In this document: positions 19,923-35,022 of the stretch, piece after piece | Position numbering within the stretch: position 1 is the stretch's first letter | How the letters are laid out: each line of letters starts with the position of its first letter | From: Nitrosospira sp. Nsp11 | Lineage (GTDB): Bacteria > Pseudomonadota > Gammaproteobacteria > Burkholderiales > Nitrosomonadaceae | NCBI RefSeq assembly: GCF_900142705.1 | Contig: NZ_FRBV01000014.1 | Coordinates: forward strand, 1 to 64,000 | Reading direction: 5' to 3' | DNA: 64,000 nucleotides | The notes under the pieces: generated by a model | What the model saw: the letters and a program-made list of their open reading frames with translations, nothing else | Databases searched by the model: none | Told to the model about the DNA's origin: nothing | Position numbers and translations under genes: made by a program

Positions 19923-20123
19923 GTGAAAAAACATGACGACCCGGATGGACCCACCGCCGTTACTGCTTTGCTTGATCATGGAGCGGAAGTTTTTACGAAA
20001 AAAAAGTTCACGCACTCTCAGTCAAAGGCTCAGCAACGTGGAAACGACATAAAAAACGACCGGCAAGAAAAAATGTCCGCTATCAGATCGAGGTCCGCGC
20101 AGGAACAATCGAACCGGAACTAG
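19923..20123 (+). CDS. Small basic protein, MKK-D-D family (copy 1)
   Basis: 66 residues from a GTG with a good GAGGAG site 7 nt upstream. It starts MKKHDDPDG and is rich in Lys, Arg, Ser and Gln (FTKKKFTHSQSKAQQRGNDI). It resembles the 62-residue protein at 25210 (MKK-x-[DN]-D-x-D, then AL.D, F..K.F.H.QS, Q). No family recognised. The strong ribosome site and the second copy argue that it is real. Confidence 0.55.
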   Translation: MKKHDDPDGPTAVTALLDHGAEVFTKKKFTHSQSKAQQRGNDIKNDRQEKMSAIRSRSAQEQSNRN

Positions 20124-20333
20124 GCGTAAGCTGGCAAGGCGACAAGCATAGGGTTTATAACGCGGCATTACCCCGCCGTAAAGCCAGGTTCGAACTCCGC
20201 GCATTCCTATATTCCGCAATTTCAGGCAGGAATCCCGCCACAGCGGCGCATATTCCATTGGTCTTCAGTTTCAGCAGAGAAACGATTTGTCTTTAGATGT
20301 AACCCCCTGTTCCGGCTACATGAGTGGAAAGTT

Positions 20334-21788
20334 TCAACTCACCCGTATATTCTTGAACTGCCACGGATCACTCCTATCCACATCTTCACTGAATAGCCAT
20401 CCCCTATCGCACAGAGGAGTCCAATCGGTATATACACCCAGAATTTCTCCGAGATAAGGCCGTGCGATCTTCAAAGTGAGCTCATGGTCAATGTCGTCGG
20501 GCTCGACCACACCCGCATCAGGATTTTGAAGCACCCATGCCATGCCGGCCAGAACTCCCGCCACAACCTGCAAGCTTGTTGCATTGTTGTGTGGCATTAG
20601 CCGCCGCGCTTCCTGTATCGACAAACGTGAGCCGTACCAGTAGGCCCCCTTGGCGTTACCCATGAGCAGGACGCCAAGTTCATCCACCCCGTCCGCTATT
20701 TCATCACGAAGGATTCGCTTGTTGGACTGCAAGCGCCAATTCCTGCCTGCCAATTCGTGAATGGAAAGCACGGCGTCGTCACAAGGAAGGTACGCGTAAT
20801 GCACCGTGGGACGATAAATTACTTTTTCGTTTTCTTTCAACGTAAGATGATCGGCGATGGAAATAGATTCGCTATGCGTAATTAGAAAACCCTGATAGGA
20901 GCCACCGAGCGGAACCCAGCTGCGCACACGTGTAGCAGCGCCAGGCTGGTTAAGGTAAATGGCAGCGTCACAACCAAATCCATGCCGTGCACCGTCCCGC
21001 GGCCAATGACGCTCATGACTTCCCCACCCCAGTTCTGAAGGCTGAAGACTTTCGCCCACGAACCCTTCGACCGACCAGGTATTGATAAACTCATCGTCAC
21101 GCTTACGCTGGTTGGTAGTCTGAGTATCTCGCTCAGCGATGTGGATCGTTTTAATTTCAAGGCGAGACGCCAGCTCGGCCCAATCTCCGGCGCTTACCGG
21201 CCTCTTTATTGTCAAGCCGGTATCCGCGGCGATATTAAGCAACGCCTGTTTGACAAAGGCAGAAGCAAGACCAGGGTTGGCGCCGTGAGCTACGAGTGCC
21301 GTGGGGCCTCCCCGCTTTTCGCGTGCGAACGCAAGGGCTTTTTCGCGCAATGCATAATTCGAGCGCAACGATACCGATATCGATTTGTCGGTATACCCGC
21401 CCAACCATGGCTCAATACAAGTATCAAGGTATAGTGAGCCGCGCTGCCAGCACAGCTCGATCAAGGCAAGGCTGGAAACGTCCACCGACAGGTTGAGCAG
21501 GAAATCTCCCTTGTTCAGCCATGGCCCGATTGCGGCAGGGTAGTTTTCTTCTGTCAGCATATGAAGCATAAATTCCACGCCGAATTGCCGCGCAATATCC
21601 CGGCCACTCTCATCAGCGGAAATTATCCTGACCTGTTCAGGGCGTATTTCAAGATGTTGAAACAATAGCCTGAGCAAGGCTTGCCCGATGCTGCCGAAAC
21701 CTACTATTATCAGCTTACCGTTCAAACGCCCGTATTTGTCATACCCTGTCTTTTCCATACTGAGATTTTCCTGTGCTTCTTTGAACAT
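20334..21788 (-). CDS. hss: Homospermidine synthase
   Basis: 484 residues from MFKEAQ at 21788, which has a strong GAGGGAG site; the open frame extends 67 codons further upstream without one. The N-terminal Rossmann motif is IIVGFGSIGQALL (about 29-41). Other conserved stretches are YLDTCIEPWLGGY, ALVAHGANPGLAS and GSYQGFLITHSESISIADHL, characteristic of the bacterial enzyme. It makes homospermidine from putrescine with NAD+ as cofactor, in the cytoplasm. Length matches the family (about 470-480). Confidence 0.93.
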   Translation of the reverse strand: MFKEAQENLSMEKTGYDKYGRLNGKLIIVGFGSIGQALLRLLFQHLEIRPEQVRIISADESGRDIARQFGVEFMLHMLTEENYPAAIGPWLNKGDFLLNLSVDVSSLALIELCWQRGSLYLDTCIEPWLGGYTDKSISVSLRSNYALREKALAFAREKRGGPTALVAHGANPGLASAFVKQALLNIAADTGLTIKRPVSAGDWAELASRLEIKTIHIAERDTQTTNQRKRDDEFINTWSVEGFVGESLQPSELGWGSHERHWPRDGARHGFGCDAAIYLNQPGAATRVRSWVPLGGSYQGFLITHSESISIADHLTLKENEKVIYRPTVHYAYLPCDDAVLSIHELAGRNWRLQSNKRILRDEIADGVDELGVLLMGNAKGAYWYGSRLSIQEARRLMPHNNATSLQVVAGVLAGMAWVLQNPDAGVVEPDDIDHELTLKIARPYLGEILGVYTDWTPLCDRGWLFSEDVDRSDPWQFKNIRVS

Positions 21789-21990
21789 ATTCTCCCTCTT
21801 TCCCTGGCGCCTGCTGGACAAATGTTTCCCATTGGACAAACTTGAAAACCGGCCAAACAAAATCCCATCGCTCGCGCTCGCTTTGGCCCTGCGTTGCCTT
21901 GTTACCCGGACCGTCAGGAACTGCACGTAGCAGATTGGGTCAAACTTGTATTCTAGCGCTTCGTATTTCTTTTTGGAGGAGAGCGGCAAA

Positions 21991-22344
21991 ATGACTAATT
22001 GTATCCTGCCACAGCATGAAAATCATACTCATCCGCATGGACCCGAATGCGGCCACACAGGTATCGTGCACAACGGGCATGTCGATTACCTGCATGACGG
22101 GCATCTGCATCACCCGCACGGCAACCATTTCGATGAGCATGTGATAGACATAACCACGGCCAATCCTGAAAGCTGTACGCCTGAACATCAATGCGCGGGC
22201 CATGCGCAAGAACATATACATGGACCTGACTGCGGCCATGAAGCCGTGCCGCATGGCGATCACATGGACTATCTTGTCGATGGCCACCTCCATCACCCGC
22301 ATGACGACCATTGCGATGATCACGGGGCAGTTACGGTGGCATGA
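21991..22344 (+). CDS. Histidine-rich metal-binding protein with two internal repeats
   Basis: 117 residues from MTNCILPQHENHTH at 21991 (GGAGGAG 9 nt upstream). Two ~45-residue repeats each run HGP-[ED]-CGH...HG/DH..DYL.DGHLHHPH..H.D.H. The first covers about 10-55 and the second about 75-117, both with a CGH and many His/Asp pairs, well suited to binding zinc or nickel. No signal peptide, so cytoplasmic storage or delivery is likely. Divergent from hss, with starts about 200 bp apart. Confidence 0.82.
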   Translation: MTNCILPQHENHTHPHGPECGHTGIVHNGHVDYLHDGHLHHPHGNHFDEHVIDITTANPESCTPEHQCAGHAQEHIHGPDCGHEAVPHGDHMDYLVDGHLHHPHDDHCDDHGAVTVA

Positions 22345-22476
22345 TCCGGGAATTGCTGACAAGGTACGAGCGGGTCCGGGCAGGAGCCATACACGATGGG
22401 AATTCTACATCGGAACAGGTAAGAGGCTTGGTGCGCCGGCTTCGCGCTCGCTTCGTTTAGGCGGACGAAGCTGCCT

Positions 22477-22602
22477 TGCGGGTCGTTGCTTTATCCGGGG
22501 GTAAATCCTGCTCTACCGATTGCGGCTGATCGCGGTGAGAAATCTTCGGACGGTGAAACCCGCCATGCGGGTCGTTGTTTTATCCTCGAGGGTAAATTCC
22601 TC
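22477..22602. repeat. Two direct copies of a ~33-bp repeat
   Basis: TGCGGGTCGTTG...TTTATCC...GGGTAAAT-type units lie at 22477-22509 and 22566-22602, separated by 56 bp. Each also has a TTTATCC/GGGTAAA dyad. They stand between the His-rich gene and the co-polymerase gene, next to a REP element. Confidence 0.7.
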
Positions 22603-24607
22603 CCTGCTGGTTTGTAGGTCGGGCTTCGCCCGACATTGTCATTAGCGCAGGGTGAAGTAGCTCAATCTCGTAAATATCCCGGCCTTGTTGCGGCGGTGAA
22701 TACGCGCTGTAGCTGGAAACGACCGAAGGCTCCAAATGACCCGTGACCTGCTCAAGGTCCCCTAGCCGCAGTCCTTGGCGTACAAGATAGGCGATATAGC
22801 TGTGCCGGATTGCTTCGGCGGTAATTTGCTGGGGATCAGGCAAACCCGAGTCCACTGCCGCACAGATTAATGCGGCGGAAAGATCGATGCGCGTCCCTGG
22901 GTCATCCGGGTTCCATACAGGATGACCCCCTGACTGCATGAGCGACGATTTAACGGAATTGCTCAGAGGAATGATTCTGGGCGACCTTCCTGCCATATTG
23001 ATGGCTGCGGCATCCAGATCGATCTGGTCGGCCGTCAACGATGCGGCTTCATCGATAGTCAATCCGCTGAGCAATAAGCCAATCAGTTGTTTTCCCTTTA
23101 GATTGGCAGCGTTGAGCAAGATTCTTAGCTGATGACTGGAAAGCTCCCGGCACGCCGGGGCTGCCAAGGCATTGTTTGTTTTTTGCCCCATTTGGCCCGC
23201 CGTGGCGCCGAGCGCGGCATGAGAATGTTCGATTAATGGGGCAGAGGGGGCCGGATGGCCCTGCACGCCAAAAACCGCAACAAGCGGCTGCTGTTCTTTT
23301 TTTTGCGTTGCCAAATACTCGAAAACCCATACGCTAAAGAGCCCTAGCAATAGCGACCCTACAATGGCTATCAAAGCGTCCCGGCTATAATTGGGCCTGA
23401 GTGGTTCCACCGGTTCAAAAGCCCTGCTAATGACAGTTACCTGCGGATATTTATCTTTGCGGCCGGTTTTGACTTGTACCAACCGCTCCTGCGCGTCTCG
23501 ATAAAGTGTCTCCAAACCTTCCAGATCGGTTTTCAAGGCATCGTGCTCAGCAAATTTGGATGTGAATGCTGATGCTTGCCGTTTATGCTCACTCAATTGA
23601 GCACGAATTTCTCTAACAGTTTGTTGTGCGGCCGCATACGCCATCTCGGCATCTGTCAATGCCACGCTTGCGCCGTATTTACGTTTATTATTGACTGCGA
23701 TCTCCAGTTCCTTGATTTGCTCTGGAATAGATCTCAAATCAGGTTGCAGATTTAAATACTCCCGTGTAAATTTTTTATCGAGTTCCGCCAGCTTTTCGCG
23801 CAAATCCCGCAAACGCGATTCAAGATTAACCAGGCTGCCCTTCTCATCATCGGGAACCACCGCCTTTCCCCGGCCAATGGCGGTCTGGATAGAACTCAGG
23901 TGGGCCCTCGCCTTCACTTCATCCTCACTGGCCTTGTTGAGGGAATCGTTCAGGCCTTTAAGGCGGGCTGCTGCTTCATTCTCCTCACGTTGCGTGGAAG
24001 AGATATCGTGGTTTTTTCGGAAAGCCTCCAGCTCTAGCCGGGCAGAGCTAACCTTATCAGCCAGCCGCTTTACCTCGTCCTCCACAATATGTTCGGTATC
24101 GGTTGTCAATCTTTTGACTTCTTCAGTCCGTGCATCCAGGTACACATCTATCCACGTGTTAATGAGCAGCGGCAAGAACTTTGCATCGGGCCCTTCTGCC
24201 TTTATCTCAACGAGATTGGTTTCAGCGATGGGATCGACATTCAACAAATTCTGAATATCGGATGCAGTCAGCCGTTGCAGAGATTTGCCTGCTGATGTCG
24301 CCTTGAGTCGCGACACAGTCTCTGCAGCAAGCTCGTGCCGCAGAAAAATCTGTCGCTGAATAGCGACATGCTGAATATCCGCCTCGCTGCTTCCACGGTC
24401 TATGGCTGTCATCGCCGAAGTCAGCAAGGTGGCGCCGCTACCGTAAATTGCTGGTCGGCTGTAAACATAAGCCAGGCTTATAGCAAGGCTGATTAGAAAT
24501 ACCAGGCTGAAGATGCTGAATCTGCGGGACCGGTACCAGGGATGCTCATCCGTGTCGCCTGCGGCACGGAAATCTGGGGTAAAGCGGGAATCAATTCTGT
24601 TTTTCAT
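22580..24607 (-). CDS. Wzz/GumC-type polysaccharide co-polymerase fused to a degenerate tyrosine-recombinase-like domain
   Basis: 675 residues from the ATG at 24607 (a TTG at 24625 is possible). Residues 30-50 are membrane span 1; a long coiled-coil periplasmic region follows to about 400; the Pro-rich FEPVEPLRPNY leads into span 2 (about 410-432). This is the PCP fold that controls polysaccharide chain length. The cytoplasmic C-terminus (about 485-650) looks like a phage-integrase catalytic domain: GLTIDEAASLTADQIDLD, then IRHSYIAYLVRQG, then GHLEP and a Tyr (SSYSAYS). The first catalytic Arg (GLRxxE) is Thr, and the His before the second Arg is lost, so strand cleavage is unlikely. In related PCPs this place is held by a tyrosine kinase. 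Confidence 0.8.
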   Translation of the reverse strand: MKNRIDSRFTPDFRAAGDTDEHPWYRSRRFSIFSLVFLISLAISLAYVYSRPAIYGSGATLLTSAMTAIDRGSSEADIQHVAIQRQIFLRHELAAETVSRLKATSAGKSLQRLTASDIQNLLNVDPIAETNLVEIKAEGPDAKFLPLLINTWIDVYLDARTEEVKRLTTDTEHIVEDEVKRLADKVSSARLELEAFRKNHDISSTQREENEAAARLKGLNDSLNKASEDEVKARAHLSSIQTAIGRGKAVVPDDEKGSLVNLESRLRDLREKLAELDKKFTREYLNLQPDLRSIPEQIKELEIAVNNKRKYGASVALTDAEMAYAAAQQTVREIRAQLSEHKRQASAFTSKFAEHDALKTDLEGLETLYRDAQERLVQVKTGRKDKYPQVTVISRAFEPVEPLRPNYSRDALIAIVGSLLLGLFSVWVFEYLATQKKEQQPLVAVFGVQGHPAPSAPLIEHSHAALGATAGQMGQKTNNALAAPACRELSSHQLRILLNAANLKGKQLIGLLLSGLTIDEAASLTADQIDLDAAAINMAGRSPRIIPLSNSVKSSLMQSGGHPVWNPDDPGTRIDLSAALICAAVDSGLPDPQQITAEAIRHSYIAYLVRQGLRLGDLEQVTGHLEPSVVSSYSAYSPPQQGRDIYEIELLHPALMTMSGEARPTNQQGGIYPRG
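22614..22634. repeat. REP-type palindrome inside the co-polymerase 3' end
   Basis: GTAGGTCGGGC-TTCG-type stem-loop, related to the pair at 55288-55349. It lies within the last 20 codons of the gene ending at 22580 and there encodes SGEARPTN. Confidence 0.85.
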
Positions 24608-25209
24608 AAACCGGGTTACATCCAAAAATTCGATATAGCGAACGCAATCCAGGTTTCAATGGATAGGCAAAATAATAGCCGGATATGTTCAGGAATAGCA
24701 ATTAGATAAAGATTCGGCAAACTTATATCACGCTACAAGCAAAAGGCGTGCTAGCTTTGCATTGAGATAAAGGAAAGTAAATTCATCGTATTGTTTCCAT
24801 GCAGCACCTGTCCATCAAATAGATGGTTACGAAGATCAAATAGAACGTCAACAGACCAGACGACACGATAGCAACCTCACCACTTTCATGTCAGGCGTTC
24901 TCATCAGTTCTGCGAAAACGCGAACTTATAAAATCTTGTGCCACAAATGCAGCTTCCGTTCGGTTCCGCACGAACGAAACCCGATCCGTTCCCGGACAAT
25001 GTGCGCAATTCGAGAAATGAAGCTTTCATATTACTGTAAAAGTTTCGTTTTAAGCTGAAGACGTAGCTGGAGCGGTATACGCTTTTCGAAAGCGGGCAAA
25101 AAAATATTGGAAGCCCTTAAACGCCCTTCGCCCTTTTTGGCGAACAACTGCTTCGGAAACTTATTATGGTTTATTCAGCTTTTTTATTTATTCCCTTCAG
25201 GGGCGCACA
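24608..25209. other. Intergenic region, 600 bp, no gene seen
   Basis: It should hold the promoter for the - strand co-polymerase gene and for the + strand small gene. CGTTCG/CGAACG (near 24957-24976) and CGCTTT-TCG-AAAGCG (near 25080-25094) are short hairpins. Nothing else stands out. Confidence 0.5.
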
Positions 25210-25398
25210 ATGAAAAAACGTAATGATCAGGATGTGTTCGGCCTAGCTTCTGCATTGTTTGATCTCAGGTCGGCAGCCTTCCGACAAAAAATGTTTAGAC
25301 ATTTCCAATCGAGTGGCCACCAGCATTGGGTAAATATCGAAAAAATACCGGAAAGGAAAAAGCATGAGAGCATCACACTTTATAAAGAAAGCGCTTGA
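25210..25398 (+). CDS. Small basic protein, MKK-D-D family (copy 2)
   Basis: 62 residues starting MKKRNDQDVFGLASALFDLR, with an AGGGGC site upstream. It matches the 66-residue protein at 19923 at scattered positions, including F..KMF.HFQSSG.Q and an ERKKHES end. No family recognised. Preceded by an AT-rich leader similar in type to that of copy 1. Confidence 0.5.
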   Translation: MKKRNDQDVFGLASALFDLRSAAFRQKMFRHFQSSGHQHWVNIEKIPERKKHESITLYKESA

Positions 25399-25590
25399 CT
25401 GAAAGCCTGGCTGGCGTCCTGCATCTTCACCCGGCTCAGGCATTCCCGTCATGGCTACGGTGTTGCCGAGCTATCGCCGACAACACAAATTGCGCTTGAA
25501 ACCCCCGGGTTATGCAGTGGCCTCGTGACTGGAAAATTTCGATGAGTCACGAGACACTTCCGGCCTCTCTTCTTATATTCATTTAATCCC

Positions 25591-26379
25591 ATGCCCTACC
25601 CCATGGCATTGATGCCCGCAGTGTTTGTGGGCCACGGCAACCCGATGAATGCGATCTCCCGCAACTCATATACTGCGGCGTGGTCCGCGATCGGCGCCTC
25701 GCTCACCCACAGACCCAAAGCTATTCTCTGCATTTCGGCACACTGGTACGTGCCGAAAACAGCAATCACGGCCATGGCGCATCCGCGGACTATTCACGAC
25801 TTTGGCGGATTTCCCCCGGAGCTTCATCAAGTTCAGTATCCCGCACCGGGTTCCCTTGAGTTCGCTGCAGAAGTCGCGGATTTGCTGATGCCAGTTGCGG
25901 TCATGGACACAAGCTGGGGTCTTGATCACGGCGCCTGGTCAGTTCTCATGCACATTTTTCCCGACGCCGATATTCCCATCGTCCAATTGAGCATAGATGA
26001 AACCCGGGAAGCGGCCTGGCATTACGACACGGCCCGACGCCTGGCGCCATTGCGCGATCAGGGAGTGCTTATCCTGGGCAGTGGGAATATCGTACATAAT
26101 TTGCACGCGTATGCATGGGGAAAGCACAATGTAGAACCATACGATTGGGCTGTCCGGTTCGAGAATGTCGTACGTGAAGCGTTAAGCTCGGGCGATGTCG
26201 ATTCTCTCATAGCGTATGACAAACTGGGGCAGGACGCATTGTTATCGGTACCCACCCCAGAGCATTACCTTCCGTTTCTCTACGTCCTTGCACAACGCCG
26301 GAAAGATGAGAAAATCAGTTTCCCGGTGGAAGGATTTGATGGCGGCTCAATTTCCATGTTGGCCGTAAAGATCGGCTGA
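25591..26379 (+). CDS. ygiD: LigB-type extradiol dioxygenase, YgiD/DODA family
   Basis: 262 residues, the usual length. Metal-site motifs: FVGHGNPMNA (His about 13), ISAHWY (His about 50), GLDHGAWSVL (His about 113) and the conserved GSGNIVHNL (His about 173). Members of this family open catechol-type rings with Zn or Fe and O2 (plant DOPA dioxygenase type); the bacterial substrate is usually not known. Followed by a convergent flavoprotein gene, with an intradiol dioxygenase 1.5 kb further on. Confidence 0.88.
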   Translation: MPYPMALMPAVFVGHGNPMNAISRNSYTAAWSAIGASLTHRPKAILCISAHWYVPKTAITAMAHPRTIHDFGGFPPELHQVQYPAPGSLEFAAEVADLLMPVAVMDTSWGLDHGAWSVLMHIFPDADIPIVQLSIDETREAAWHYDTARRLAPLRDQGVLILGSGNIVHNLHAYAWGKHNVEPYDWAVRFENVVREALSSGDVDSLIAYDKLGQDALLSVPTPEHYLPFLYVLAQRRKDEKISFPVEGFDGGSISMLAVKIG

Positions 26380-26427
26380 GATCAGCCTTGCTCATGACCC
26401 GGCGATACCGATGGGTACCCCAGGTTT

Positions 26428-27516
26428 TCAAAGGCGGCCGTAATGGTATGCCGCTGTCTTTTCCTGTCGGCTCACGCGCTCTCGTATCGCATCTTCATAC
26501 TCCGCAAATCCCATGAGTGCGTGGGGTTGCGTTGATCCTTGCGTAGCCTTCAGCAGCGCATGCGCCCCAAGCTGCGCGGATTCAATCGCTAATTCAATTC
26601 CCATTCCGCTGAGCGGATCTGGCGCATAAGCAGCATCACCGACAGCGATCCAGCCTTCTCCCGACATCCTGTCGAACACCTGGGCGCCAGCCATACGGCC
26701 GGATATTTGTATCTTTCCTGATGCAGCCGACAGTAGAGGTGCGAGCAGCCGAGTGTTGCGAAGCTCGCGAACAAAAAATTCCTTCAGGGAGGCAGGCCTT
26801 TTTTTAACCTCATCGCGATCAGTACAGAAACCGGCAAAGTAACTGCCGTCCCCGACGGGCAATGCATACCACCAACCGTTGTCCATACCCTCGACATAAA
26901 GCGTATTCCCGGGCGATGGAACTGACCCGCTAACCGGCGTTCGTAAGAACGTCATCAAGGCAATCTTCGATGGTTCGGCTACGGGTGACCGGTCAACAAA
27001 CTGTGCGGCCACGCGGCCGGTAGCAAGGACTAGAAAACTGGCAGAGGCATGACTTCCGGCCTCATCCCCGACGGTTGCGGCGGCCGAGCGCATCAGGAGA
27101 TGCCACTGATCTCCGCTGCGCTCGATTCCCACAATTTTGGCATCGTCAATGATCAATACGCCCGCCATGCAAGCCACGTCACGCAGCGCCCGGTCGAAAA
27201 GCGGGCGCTCTATTGCGATACCGGCACCCCATGGATTAAACATTGCGTTAAATGTGACGGGCTCGGGCGTATCCCATAATGATATCGTCTCGTGGACTTC
27301 TACCCCGAGCGATGCCTTCTGAAAAAAATCGGGGCTGTAGCGTTCAATAAGGTGACGCGCGTGGCCAGACACGAGTTCGATGCCGCCTGCGGCATAACCG
27401 CCCCAATGTACGAGACCCACGCGCGCGCCGCCGCGCGCGAGCATGAGCGCGCATATCGCACCCGCCGGTCCACCGCCGACGACAGCAATATCTAAACTTC
27501 GGCTAAGCCCGGGCAT
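26428..27516 (-). CDS. FAD-dependent oxidoreductase (tryptophan halogenase / geranylgeranyl-reductase-like)
   Basis: 362 residues from the ATG at 27516; a GTG at 27564 would add 16 residues. The FAD site VVGGGPAGAICALMLARGGA is at about 11-30, and the second FAD motif GWIAVGDAAYAPDPLSGMG at about 275. No motif gives the substrate. Convergent with ygiD (48 bp apart) and divergent from the intradiol dioxygenase gene, which may mark a small aromatic-compound locus. Confidence 0.8.
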   Translation of the reverse strand: MPGLSRSLDIAVVGGGPAGAICALMLARGGARVGLVHWGGYAAGGIELVSGHARHLIERYSPDFFQKASLGVEVHETISLWDTPEPVTFNAMFNPWGAGIAIERPLFDRALRDVACMAGVLIIDDAKIVGIERSGDQWHLLMRSAAATVGDEAGSHASASFLVLATGRVAAQFVDRSPVAEPSKIALMTFLRTPVSGSVPSPGNTLYVEGMDNGWWYALPVGDGSYFAGFCTDRDEVKKRPASLKEFFVRELRNTRLLAPLLSAASGKIQISGRMAGAQVFDRMSGEGWIAVGDAAYAPDPLSGMGIELAIESAQLGAHALLKATQGSTQPHALMGFAEYEDAIRERVSRQEKTAAYHYGRL

Positions 27517-27847
27517 GCGCTGCAACGCCGGTTGTTGCACTTGAAAAATGCCCAGGTTCAACACTGACCCCGTTATCCACCAGCGAAGCTGTAGCTATAT
27601 TGATATCATTATCAGAATACGCAGTGGAAAAGCTGATTTAATGTCTGGATCGAGAGCAGCGATTTCACCCGGCGCATCGATCGCGCAGGCGTATACTCAT
27701 TCTGTACTAACATGATTTTATATGGAAGAATTCATTAGAAAAGAAGGTTTCCGGTGCGGAACATATTGCCCTGCAGGGATCGGTCTGCGGCAGAAAACCA
27801 AAACCGCATCTAATTCCAGCTTGCCATTATGAAAGAGGATATCGACC

Positions 27848-28531
27848 ATGAATCCGGATAAGAGAATGCAAAATCATCGCGTCATGTTGAGTCGTCGCAT
27901 GATATTGAAAGCATCGGCTGCAATATTCGCTACAGGCATATTGCCATCGCTCACTACAGTTTTTGCGCAACCGGCCCTGAACCGGACACAAGATCAGATC
28001 CTGGGTCCCTTTTATCCGATCATGAGCAAACCCGATCGCAGCGGAGACCTGACTCGGGTACCCGGCGGGTCGGGGCGTGCAAAGGGACAGCTTCTTATGG
28101 TTACCGGGCGCGTGCGGAATCCTGCAGGAAACCCAGTGGCAGGCGCGGAGATCGAAATATGGCAGGCCAATGCTTTCGGCCGCTATACGCATCCCGACGA
28201 TACGAACCCGGCGCCGCTCGATCCGAATTTCCAGGGTTTCGGCGCGGTAACCACCGGTCCCGATGGCCTCTATCAGTTCAAAACAATCAAACCCATACAT
28301 TATCCCGCGGGAATCACCGGCATCAGGCCGGCGCATATTCATTTTGACGTCAAGGGCCGCCACGACGTCCTCGTAACGCAGATGTACTTCGAAGGCGATC
28401 CATACAATGACAAGGATCCATACCTCCAGAGCACTCCCGATCCGGAAGCGTTGATCGTAAAGCTGCACTCACCAAGAACAGAAGAGCCTGAATTCATGGT
28501 CGCGGTATTCGATATTATATTCAGAGGCTAA
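27848..28531 (+). CDS. Intradiol ring-cleavage dioxygenase, probably Tat-exported
   Basis: 227 residues. The N-terminus has SRRMILKASAAIFATGILPS, a Tat-type signal (RR motif) cut near AQA. The catalytic domain shows GPFYP, VTGRVRNPAGNPVAGAEIEIWQ, a Tyr in FGRYTHPDD, YQFKTIKP and RPAHIHFDV, matching protocatechuate 3,4-dioxygenase-type enzymes with two Tyr and two His iron ligands. RBS GAAAGAGG lies 12 nt upstream. Exported intradiol dioxygenases of this size have unknown natural substrates. Confidence 0.87.
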   Translation: MNPDKRMQNHRVMLSRRMILKASAAIFATGILPSLTTVFAQPALNRTQDQILGPFYPIMSKPDRSGDLTRVPGGSGRAKGQLLMVTGRVRNPAGNPVAGAEIEIWQANAFGRYTHPDDTNPAPLDPNFQGFGAVTTGPDGLYQFKTIKPIHYPAGITGIRPAHIHFDVKGRHDVLVTQMYFEGDPYNDKDPYLQSTPDPEALIVKLHSPRTEEPEFMVAVFDIIFRG

Positions 28532-31641: not shown

Positions 31642-34600
31642 GTGGCCTCCGCTTTTTTAATATCCGATGATAAAGTTCCTTTCTCGCTCAACCGTAATAT
31701 GATGAGTCGGAACCCATGGCTCATCGTTTTGCTTTACGCCGCCTTTTCAACGCTTTGGATTGTCGTTGCGGGCTATTTGATCTCGCTCTCCCATGATGAT
31801 CCGGTTTTGCGGAGCCGTGCCTATCTCGCGAAAGAACTGATTCTTGTCGCGATCAGTAGTGTCATGTTTTATCTGCTGCTTAAGTGGAGTCGAAACAACG
31901 TCATTCCTTCGGGGTCACCCGGACCGGATTCCGGAAACGTCTCGTTAAATCGGTTATTGCTGATATTTTTCTCGATGGCCATGGTCGCACCCCTGGTTAG
32001 TATCGGCATCGTCAAGATATATGAGCCACAAATAGAGCGGGATGCATATGCGAATCTTCAAACTATCGTTGACCTTAAAGCAGAACAGATCGAGCTTTGG
32101 CTGGCCGAGCGACACGGGGATGCGGAAGCATTAGCGATGAGTCAGGCGCTCGTCGAGCGGATAGTGAATCTGAAGCGCGATACCGATGGGCGCCTGCAAC
32201 AGCTCATTCGCAGCCGGTTGGACGCGGTTCGGCAGGCCTATAGCTACGAGTCTGTACTGCTGATGGATATAAAAGGACAGCCTCTGCTGGCGTTAGGCGA
32301 TGCGCATAAACTGCCTGCTATTACCAGGACATTACTGACTGCTGCCTTGCAGACGCGCGAGATACAGAGCAGTGACCTGTTTCTGGACGAAAGTGGGGAA
32401 GCCCGGCTGGATATCGTAGTGCCTCTGGTTCACGATGGCATGAGCAACGAGGCTGTCGCAGTCGTCGTTTTGCGCGCGGATCTCGAACAATTTCTGGTTC
32501 CGCTGGTGGAAAAATGGCCCGGTCGCAGCCCCAGCGCGGAGACACTGCTAATCCGTAAAGCAGGTGAAAATATCACCTATCTTAATAAATTGCGCCACAC
32601 CGGAAGCTCCGGGGGCGCCACGTTGCAACGCCAATCGTTAGCCGCGAGGGAAAACTTGCCTGGCGCCATTGCAGCACGAGAAGGCCAGCGTGGAACGGCG
32701 AGTGGAACCGATTATCGCGGGGAGCCGGTCATCGCAGTTTACCGGCCAATTTCCGGCTCTGCCTGGCAGCTGCTCGCAAAAATCGATCATAGTGAGGTAC
32801 TTGCCCAATTATGGACCCTGGTATTCTGGGTCAGCGTGGTAATTTTAATTGCGATGGCTACGGTAGGCGTAATGTTGCTGCTGCTCTGGCGTCAGCAGCA
32901 ACGCGCTCATCAACTGGAGTTGATTGTCCGCACTGCCGAGCAAGACCGCCTCCTCAAGTATTTTTACGAATTGCCATTTATCGGTATGGCAATCATCTCT
33001 CCCGAAACCAGGCGCTGGCTGCGATTCAACAACCAGTTATGCGAAATGCTTGGTTATTCCCGCGAGGAACTCACCGAAAAGAATCTGGCTGAGATGACAT
33101 ATCCGGCGGACATGAAAAAAGACATTGCCGATCTGGAACGTGTCCTGCGGGGAGAGTCGGAAGGCTATGCAACGAACAAACGTTTCCTCCGCAAAGATGG
33201 TTCGATTGTGATGGCCAACATGGATGTCAAATGCGTACACAGAAATAGTGGCGAAGTTCATTACGTCGTCACCATGATCCGCGATGTAACCGAGCAGGAG
33301 CGGCAAAAGGCCGAAATTCTTGCTGCGCAAAGTCAGTTGCAAGCCACGCTGGATGCCATACCCGATCTGCTATTCGAGCTAGACCTCGACGGCTGCTGCC
33401 ATGCCTATCATTCCGCACGCACTTACCTGCCTGGTTCTCCTGTTGAAGATTTGCTTGGCAAGAAAATTTCAGATGTTCTTCCGCCGAGCGCGGCAGATAT
33501 TGTCCTGTCAGCATTGCTGGAGGCTCAGAAAAAAGGGCTGTCATCCGGCAAGCAAGTAGAACTGGAGCTTTCAGGAGAAAAAGGCAGGTTGTGGTTTGAA
33601 CTCTCCGTCTCCCGAAAGCAGCTGAGTGCCGAGCTGGAGCCTCGCTTCATTGTTCTCGCGCGAGATATCACCGAACGTAAGGCATCCGAACAGCGCATCA
33701 TGCAACTTGCTCACTACGATCCTCTCACTGCGCTTCCTAACCGCGCGTTGCTGGCGGATCGGATGAAGGTCGCGATTAAACGCGCCGAACGGCGTTCTGG
33801 CCGGCTCGCCCTGCTATTCGTGGATCTCGACCGTTTCAAGCCGATCAACGATTCGCTTGGACACGACATTGGCGATCATTTGCTTAAAGCTGTGGCGGAA
33901 CGCATGCAAGCTTCAGTTCGTAGCGTTGATACGGTAAGCCGGGTCGGAGGCGACGAATTTGTTGTCCTATTGAGCGAGATCGAAACGACAGAGGATGCGG
34001 CACGCGTTGCGGAAAAACTTATTTTTGGATTATCGCAGCCATATCTGATTGAAGAGCATGAGTTGCTGTTGACCGCAAGCATCGGCATTTGCATCTATCC
34101 GGACAATGGTAAGGAATCCAATATTCTGTTACGCAATGCAGATGCCTCGATGTACACCGCTAAGGAAGCCGGCCGAAACCGTTATCAATTCTACTCGCGT
34201 GACATGACGGTGCGGGCAATCGAACGGGTCAGTCTTGAACACGATCTGCGGGGCGCAGCTGAACGCGGCGAAATATTTTTGGTGTACCAGCCGCAAATCG
34301 AGCTTGCGACGGAGCGAATAATCGGCGCGGAGGTGCTGATGCGCTGGCAGCACCCTATGCGCGGGCTCATTTCGCCGATTCGATTCATTCCCGTCGCAGA
34401 GGATAGCGGCTTGATTCTCGCAATGGGAGAATGGGCGCTGCGCGAAGCCTGCGGGCAGGCCCGGATATGGCGCGATCGCGGGTTACTGGATATATGTATC
34501 TCGGTCAACGTTTCGGCGGTCCAATTCCGTCAAACCGATTTTGTCGTTACCGTTGAGCGCGCACTCAGGGATGCAGGACTATCGCACGGCAACCTGGAGC

Positions 34601-35022
34601 TGGAACTCACCGAAAGCGTAGTGATGCAGGGGATGGAGCCTACCCTGGGGAAATTACGGGAACTGGACGCTCTTGGAGTAAAGGTCGCAATCGATGACTT
34701 TGGCACCGGCTACTCGAGCCTCTCATACCTGCGGCAGTTTACGGTCGCTAGATTGAAAATCGATCAGTCCTTCGTACGGGACTTGCCGGGCAATGTTGAC
34801 GCTAAAGCCATCGCGGCGGCGATTGTGGCCATGGGCCTTAGCCTCGGCTTGCGCATTATTGCCGAGGGCGTGGAGACCAAAGCGCAGGCGGAATTTCTGC
34901 AAAGCGTCTCATGCAAGGAAGGCCAGGGTTATCTGTATGCCTGGCCTATGGCAGCCGACGAGTTTGAAGCATGGGTAGCGGAATGGCAGAGCCGAACAGA
35001 CAAGAAGTCGCACGCAGTTTGA
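31642..35022 (+). CDS. Membrane-bound PAS-GGDEF-EAL cyclic-di-GMP enzyme
   Basis: 1126 residues from a GTG; ATG 31699/31702 would also work. There are two spans near the N-terminus (about 28-50 and 65-82), a third at about 110-130, a periplasmic sensor domain to about 385, a span at about 390-418, two PAS domains (about 435-555 and 560-675), GGDEF (RVGGDEFVVLLS at about 767, with inhibitory-site R-S-V-D five residues before it) and EAL (EVLMRWQHP at about 896; DDFGTGYSSL). All catalytic motifs are intact, so it may both make and break c-di-GMP. The PelD protein in this window carries a c-di-GMP receptor motif. Confidence 0.9.
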   Translation: MASAFLISDDKVPFSLNRNMMSRNPWLIVLLYAAFSTLWIVVAGYLISLSHDDPVLRSRAYLAKELILVAISSVMFYLLLKWSRNNVIPSGSPGPDSGNVSLNRLLLIFFSMAMVAPLVSIGIVKIYEPQIERDAYANLQTIVDLKAEQIELWLAERHGDAEALAMSQALVERIVNLKRDTDGRLQQLIRSRLDAVRQAYSYESVLLMDIKGQPLLALGDAHKLPAITRTLLTAALQTREIQSSDLFLDESGEARLDIVVPLVHDGMSNEAVAVVVLRADLEQFLVPLVEKWPGRSPSAETLLIRKAGENITYLNKLRHTGSSGGATLQRQSLAARENLPGAIAAREGQRGTASGTDYRGEPVIAVYRPISGSAWQLLAKIDHSEVLAQLWTLVFWVSVVILIAMATVGVMLLLLWRQQQRAHQLELIVRTAEQDRLLKYFYELPFIGMAIISPETRRWLRFNNQLCEMLGYSREELTEKNLAEMTYPADMKKDIADLERVLRGESEGYATNKRFLRKDGSIVMANMDVKCVHRNSGEVHYVVTMIRDVTEQERQKAEILAAQSQLQATLDAIPDLLFELDLDGCCHAYHSARTYLPGSPVEDLLGKKISDVLPPSAADIVLSALLEAQKKGLSSGKQVELELSGEKGRLWFELSVSRKQLSAELEPRFIVLARDITERKASEQRIMQLAHYDPLTALPNRALLADRMKVAIKRAERRSGRLALLFVDLDRFKPINDSLGHDIGDHLLKAVAERMQASVRSVDTVSRVGGDEFVVLLSEIETTEDAARVAEKLIFGLSQPYLIEEHELLLTASIGICIYPDNGKESNILLRNADASMYTAKEAGRNRYQFYSRDMTVRAIERVSLEHDLRGAAERGEIFLVYQPQIELATERIIGAEVLMRWQHPMRGLISPIRFIPVAEDSGLILAMGEWALREACGQARIWRDRGLLDICISVNVSAVQFRQTDFVVTVERALRDAGLSHGNLELELTESVVMQGMEPTLGKLRELDALGVKVAIDDFGTGYSSLSYLRQFTVARLKIDQSFVRDLPGNVDAKAIAAAIVAMGLSLGLRIIAEGVETKAQAEFLQSVSCKEGQGYLYAWPMAADEFEAWVAEWQSRTDKKSHAV

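Follow-up and report, generated by a model that had tools for sequence, protein, structure and literature searches.

Wzc of Escherichia coli, a polysaccharide co-polymerase (PCP) of the PCP-2a type, has two membrane helices, a small base of strands with long periplasmic helices, and a BY-kinase domain past the second membrane helix. PMC8285477 describes an octamer that is held by the C-terminal tail entering the kinase site of the neighbour. In the pseudokinase PCP-2 system EcpK/EpsV a dead cytoplasmic domain works with the PCP. EcpK, a separate protein with a dead kinase fold, was proposed to scaffold its PCP independently of phosphorylation, and PCP-2 variants with a fused pseudokinase are also named (PMC12004946). 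Among tyrosine recombinases, the last helix of XerA lies in cis in a groove which other recombinases fill with the helix of the neighbour, and a switch of this XerA helix from cis to trans was proposed (PMC3646895). The recombinase fold recurs in the SPbeta-type phage regulators MrpR/YopR and SroF. MrpR is presented in PMC10516654 as a DNA-binding repressor which has kept the fold and a core-binding domain and has lost the recombinase function; SroF was compared by its PDB title alone.

We analysed a gene of Nitrosospira sp. Nsp11 in a window of 64,000 nucleotides (contig NZ_FRBV01000014.1, positions 1 to 64,000; genome G000 with 3.2 Mb in 35 contigs, 99.97% complete). Its product shares with Wzc the two membrane helices, the strand base with long periplasmic helices and the presence of a domain past the second helix. 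Yet this domain has a recombinase fold where Wzc carries a BY-kinase, and the gene is unlinked to a polysaccharide locus in the window. Unlike EcpK it joins its putatively dead domain to the PCP in the same chain, and unlike MrpR, as far as the latter is described, it is a PCP fusion. With XerA, XerC and XerD it has the catalytic-domain fold and sequence profile in common, whereas catalytic residues and the core-binding domain are missing and a PCP is fused. An earlier note on this DNA, made from the sequence, knew of no family described with such a pairing. A full-text literature search was in line with this. Among the matches listed, with most subscription papers outside the literature covered, no description of a PCP paired with a dead tyrosine recombinase was found. 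No paper of this search contained both 'polysaccharide co-polymerase' and 'tyrosine recombinase'; 'chain length determinant' and 'tyrosine recombinase' co-occurred, once each, in two papers titled as E. coli genomes.

Anatomy of the fusion protein

The gene encodes 675 amino acids on the minus strand, with the ATG at 24607 and the stop at 22580; the earlier note had given these coordinates correctly, with the strand unstated. According to profiles, a structural model and structural matches, residues 24-446 resemble a PCP with a coiled-coil periplasmic part between two membrane helices. The closest sequence families were the EpsF/XrtA-system chain length determinants TIGR03007 (1.9e-14) and TIGR03017 EpsF (2.7e-14), followed by TIGR01005 (1.5e-10), all NCBIfam matches within residues 102-448. 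Yet the scores were far under the curated cut-offs with 52.7 vs 422.75 bits for TIGR03017 and 52.8 vs 278.85 bits for TIGR03007, and the 11 Pfam families that were listed at E <= 10 included no Wzz or GNVR model. By hydropathy, residues 27-54 and 408-434 are hydrophobic. Together with local matches of the model this gave two membrane helices around a large, mainly helical periplasmic part. The full-length model was built from six sequences only and was weak with a pTM of 0.33. Because of this its PDB matches are local, with query TM-scores of at most 0.28 and large rmsd. The whole model matched Wzc best (9r64, 2.4e-9), and WzzE (8p3p, 9e-6), XerA (5hxy, 1.8e-5) and KpsE (8tsh, 9e-5) were matched as well. 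No kinase model of Pfam or NCBIfam matched residues 447-675, and a BY-kinase, with its Walker motifs and Tyr-rich tail, was not found there. Flanking charges weakly back the placement of the C-terminus in the cytoplasm.

As seen by Foldseek, a PDB profile search and hhalign, residues 486-657 fold like the catalytic domain of tyrosine recombinases. Pfam Phage_integrase matched residues 492-635 at 4.4e-4 in the whole protein. With the last 230 residues alone it reached 3.4e-5 and 24.1 bits, under the cut-off of 27.1, and the XerA model NF040815 reached 2.7e-7 with 30.4 bits vs a cut-off of 220. Domain homologues in three genomes of the genus passed the Pfam cut-off (G004, 31.3 bits; G005, 29.8 bits; G006, 28.6 bits), and PF00589 was matched at E <= 0.01 by 28 of 39 diverse members. 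AlphaFold2 modelled the domain from five sequences with a pTM of 0.72 and a core pLDDT of ~90; the mean pLDDT of the five models ranged from 73.6 down to 50.2. Foldseek with the domain model returned 115 PDB matches. All 21 at E <= 1e-3 were tyrosine recombinases or integrases with XerA as the best (5hxy, 2.3e-6, TM 0.59 on the query), and MrpR, YopR and SroF held ranks 25-27. A 39-sequence domain profile matched an archaeal Xer recombinase (4a8e, 2e-12) and XerD (1a0p, 6e-7) in the PDB, and hhalign of the domain against 16 recombinase domains gave 97.9% at 5e-13. The earlier note had proposed the reuse of a DNA-enzyme fold and had tied its reading to a structure search; the recombinases returned by Foldseek and by the profile and hhalign comparisons bear this out.

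The domain profile was run on 274 genomes of the class. It gave four matches at 171-224 bits, each of them in a fusion frame, and then dropped to 51 bits. Above this gap these genomes showed the domain in PCP fusions only, whereas the weaker matches lay in frames that differ in size. The domain thus forms a discrete subfamily. A core-binding domain was not found; the second membrane helix and the domain are separated by ~50 variable, low-confidence residues without a Pfam match. The C-terminal segment (residues 636-657) was of low confidence in both the domain model and the full-length model, and it probably occupies the place of the recombinase helix that is exchanged between subunits. Taken together, NCBIfam, hydropathy, Pfam and Foldseek agree with the earlier reading of the anatomy, and we consider it nearly certain that a PCP is followed past its second membrane helix by a dead tyrosine-recombinase domain.

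Table. Features of the fusion gene and of neighbouring reading frames in the window
Feature	Positions	Strand	Basis
Whole gene, PCP fused to pseudo-tyrosine-recombinase domain, 675 aa	22580..24607	-	ORF, profile matches, homologues
First membrane helix, residues 28-50	24458..24526	-	hydropathy and model helix 28-50
PCP part, predicted periplasmic, residues 51-406; base of strands and long helices	23390..24457	-	profile matches, model, structural matches
Second membrane helix, residues 407-436; Pro-rich stretch PVEPLRPNYS just before	23300..23389	-	model and hydropathy
Linker, residues 437-485, presumed cytoplasmic, variable, without core-binding domain	23153..23299	-	pLDDT <50 at 435-485; omega 0.30 for 447-485
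Pseudo-tyrosine-recombinase catalytic domain, residues 486-635	22703..23152	-	profiles, model, Foldseek, hhalign; omega 0.146
Thr517 where the first catalytic Arg is expected; Arg in 0/88	23057..23059	-	alignment
Glu598 where the box II His is expected; His in 0/88	22814..22816	-	alignment
Arg601, box II Arg, retained in 82/88	22805..22807	-	alignment
Tyr633, nucleophile position, retained in 76/88	22709..22711	-	alignment
C-terminal segment, residues 636-657; P638 in 82/88, P653 in 85/88	22637..22702	-	alignment
His-rich ORF, 117 aa	21991..22344	+	
62-aa ORF	25210..25395	+	
Large PAS-GGDEF-EAL protein	31642..35022	+	

Catalytic residues, charge and selection

The motif reading of the earlier note proved right. 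Residues 515-517 are GLT in place of GLR, the His of the HxxR motif is replaced by Glu598 with Arg601 retained, and the spacing from His624 to Tyr633 is nine residues as in the aligned recombinases. The conservation of these positions, a check proposed in the earlier note, was counted in an alignment of 96 distinct homologue rows, 88 of them with the domain; identical sequences were counted once, and two rows were dropped, L134 because it shares its end with L036 and L106 because it is the same gene as L129. None of the 88 domain-bearing sequences had the first Arg or the box II His; 82 had the box II Arg and 76 the Tyr. At the H/W site (third-site His) 16 sequences had His and none had Trp. 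The GKG hairpin, whose Lys we take to be the catalytic Lys of the recombinase family, is two residues shorter in the profile alignment. The acidic residue of box I was present in all 88 sequences (87 Glu, 1 Asp) and Arg544 in 87, and G515, E520, R544, G612 and G623 were nearly invariant. In summary, the fold of the catalytic domain is there, the full catalytic set R, K, H, R, H/W, Y and the core-binding domain are not, and the domain is predicted from these residues to be catalytically dead.

Over ten close pairs omega was lowest in the PCP part (0.092), followed by the domain (0.146), the C-terminal segment (0.21) and the linker (0.30). Both halves are under purifying selection. The identities of the PCP half and the domain correlated with an r of 0.83 over 3828 non-independent pairs. 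The mean entropy was 1.99 bits for the C-terminal segment vs 1.94 bits for the core, i.e. on average the segment is not better conserved. Residues 490-637 and their equivalents carried a mean net charge of -5.2 (88 sequences, range -13 to +2). The corresponding value of control recombinase domains was +2.6 (n=26, range -3 to +7), a narrow control taken from 26 of 30 recombinase loci (three short loci and L179 left out); judged by their size and motifs, these 26 are probably XerC/XerD. The acidic character of the domain and the missing core-binding domain argue against DNA binding.

Distribution and gene neighbourhood

The earlier note had suggested a search for other PCP proteins with this C-terminus, and the fusion was found across genera. 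Of the 23 genus genomes 22 had a full-length homologue, and the remaining one is 80% complete. Some match was seen in 84 of 125 genomes of the family. The strong ones were the 22 of the genus and 26 labelled g3, one of which ends at a contig end; the other family matches were weak PCP matches with E-values of 5e-11 to 7e-4. Nitrosospira multiformis and Nitrosovibrio tenuis are the nearest named records that carry the gene. Wider samples, screened at E <= 1e-20, gave matches in 10/399 genomes of the order, 6/369 of the class and 3/398 of the phylum, every one inside the class. Family f218, which includes Methylobacter marinus, had matches in 49 of 151 genomes and 18 of 29 genera with domain-less and partial matches counted, family f6 in 3 of 4 genomes and family f142 in 7 of 36. 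The homologues analysed are part of the matches in these three families; L107 gave no match. Known carriers are ammonia oxidisers, methanotrophs and other lineages of the same class. Thus, a few lineages commonly carry the fusion, and outside them it is rare.

In the methanotroph-family genus g608 nine genomes matched the PCP half only. Eight g608 proteins (L111-L118) stop 58-64 residues past the second membrane helix, i.e. the domain is gone, and in six of these eight loci the next gene starts 61-63 bases past the stop. The domain-less rows group in a single clade (100/97) within the domain-bearing ones, which is consistent with a single loss of the domain; the tenth g608 genome (L119) retains it. 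Because one clade dropped the domain and retained the PCP, the domain is not always needed. The tree comprised 95 of the 96 rows, L141 belonging to family f142, with a midpoint root, and its long branches make deep placements unsure. Nitrosospira copies branched within those of methanotrophs (99/93 and 100/100 on the branches) and away from the g3 copies of Nitrosomonadaceae. In this tree without an outgroup root, such a placement suggests a transfer between methanotrophs and Nitrosospira. A phage origin of the domain subfamily was not supported: one scan of viral contigs with the window's own domain, which detects close relatives only, found no relative. Eleven plasmid records matched, and the ten listed match the PCP half only, including EpsF and tyrosine-autokinase PCPs.

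The neighbours of the fusion gene in the window are a saccharopine-dehydrogenase-like gene, a His-rich ORF and a LigB-type dioxygenase gene. A polysaccharide operon was absent around the gene in the window and, by eye, also at most of the homologue loci read. The neighbours change with the lineage (loci mostly read by eye), and none conserved across genera was seen in the loci read. Polysaccharide-linked neighbours were a flippase-like gene in L083 (below cut-off) and an XrtA-system amidotransferase gene in L138 (above cut-off); sugar-dehydrogenase-like genes were seen by eye near the gene in L072. An SNF2-type helicase gene (~1100 aa) lies upstream in ten methanotroph loci (L035 with an overlap of 4 bases, L036, L076, L121, L132, L140, L144, L145, L147 and L148), where two of the ten matched SNF2 models, below cut-offs, and the others were recognised by similar N-termini. 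This neighbour is limited to part of one family, and several of these loci have a glycosyltransferase gene downstream (one checked: TIGR04283, above cut-off). A separate locus in the window's genome encodes EpsE, EpsF (660 bits), the EpsG kinase and the exosortase XrtB, all above cut-off. Because this locus provides a normal PCP and kinase, the PCP of the fusion is an extra PCP.

Divergent from the fusion gene we observed a 62-aa ORF with the core RSAAFRQKMxxHFQ. In a search of the 23 genus genomes and the loci analysed it adjoined the fusion gene in 21 of the 22 fusion-bearing genus genomes, and the 22nd (L023) had a weaker copy. Some genomes have a second, weaker copy ~5 kb from the first, with the fusion gene between the two. 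The product of this ORF is a possible partner of the fusion protein. The His-rich ORF contains 27 His, is also found by the fusion gene in several genus loci and matched no Pfam family at E <= 0.001; its product is perhaps metal-binding. The large PAS-GGDEF-EAL protein, likely a cyclic-di-GMP enzyme, is encoded ~7 kb from the fusion gene. Rfam yielded no match over 20000-28000, and scans for promoters (5 found vs 3.5) and terminators (5 vs 3.9) were near chance.

Role of the domain

We favor the view that the protein is a PCP of the Wzc/EpsF type (PCP-2) in which the kinase is replaced by a dead recombinase domain with a scaffold role; to this statement as a whole we give an even chance. The domain would sit in the cytoplasm below the ring of PCP subunits and would hold or gate the PCP assembly without phosphorylation, as was proposed for the pseudokinase EcpK with the PCP EpsV. 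The likeliest contact would be the recombinase oligomer contact, where the post-tyrosine segment docks on the neighbouring subunit. Such docking would parallel the Wzc kinase tail in the active site of its neighbour, and a dead recombinase domain in the position of the kinase would supply a ready oligomer contact. The C-terminal segment has conserved points in P638 and P653, yet it is of low confidence in both models and on average not better conserved than the core, so that docking in trans is conjectural. We doubt the stronger version, in which the protein would represent a separate PCP class where the subunit exchange of the recombinase synapse, with the post-tyrosine segment handed to the next subunit, is reused to open and close the ring, a kinase-free switch that would have evolved independently of the tail mechanism of Wzc. 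The gene lies outside a polysaccharide operon in the window, and its role in polysaccharide export is itself putative.

Instead of a module for self-assembly, the domain could be a docking platform for another cytoplasmic protein, e.g. a glycosyltransferase, a phosphatase or a regulator. The structure of XerD with FtsK gamma (5dcf) among the matches shows that the fold is able to bind a protein partner, and conserved polar positions such as D586, Q611 and R614 would suit such a contact. Yet a candidate partner conserved across genera was not seen beside the gene in the loci read, the 62-aa ORF being conserved in the genus, and we regard a docking platform as unlikely. A membrane-held counterpart of MrpR, i.e. 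a tethered DNA-binding regulator or chromosome anchor, appears distinctly improbable. It has a precedent in that MrpR has the fold and binds DNA after loss of the recombinase function (PMC10516654), and it is in keeping with MrpR, YopR and SroF among the Foldseek matches. The upstream SNF2-type helicase genes of the ten methanotroph loci fit a DNA role as well and count against a scaffold. However, they are confined to part of one family, the domain is acidic (the charge comparison comprised recombinases, MrpR standing outside it), the Lys hairpin is shortened, and the core-binding domain that MrpR keeps is missing. The earlier note had considered binding of DNA or protein; protein scaffolding is the likelier of the two, and the DNA part is weakened by the acidic charge, the lack of a core-binding domain and the short Lys hairpin.

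The loss of catalytic residues and the absence of the domain in one clade of eight sequences would be expected of a functionless, decaying leftover of a chance fusion. An omega of 0.146, near-invariant residues over 88 sequences and retention of the domain in very diverged families make decay very unlikely. An active recombinase tethered to the membrane might be suspected from the frequent retention of Tyr633 and Arg601. With the first Arg and the box II His missing in 88 of 88 sequences and the Lys hairpin shortened it is effectively refuted by the sequence and scarcely conceivable. Finally, two genes joined by an assembly error or a frameshift, which the earlier note had named as a threat to its reading, are practically out of the question. 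The same join is found inside single open frames of tens of genomes with full-length homologues across genera, and the '1 TGA' in some genus matches is the gene's own stop, close to where the match ends, these frames reading 690 aa.

If the scaffold reading is true, a dead enzyme domain that is unrelated to the kinase but takes its position would mean that a switch of PCPs can be built without phosphorylation. The uses of the recombinase fold would then widen from DNA to membrane scaffolding. The natural clade without the domain (L111-L118) is a ready comparison for the role of the domain.
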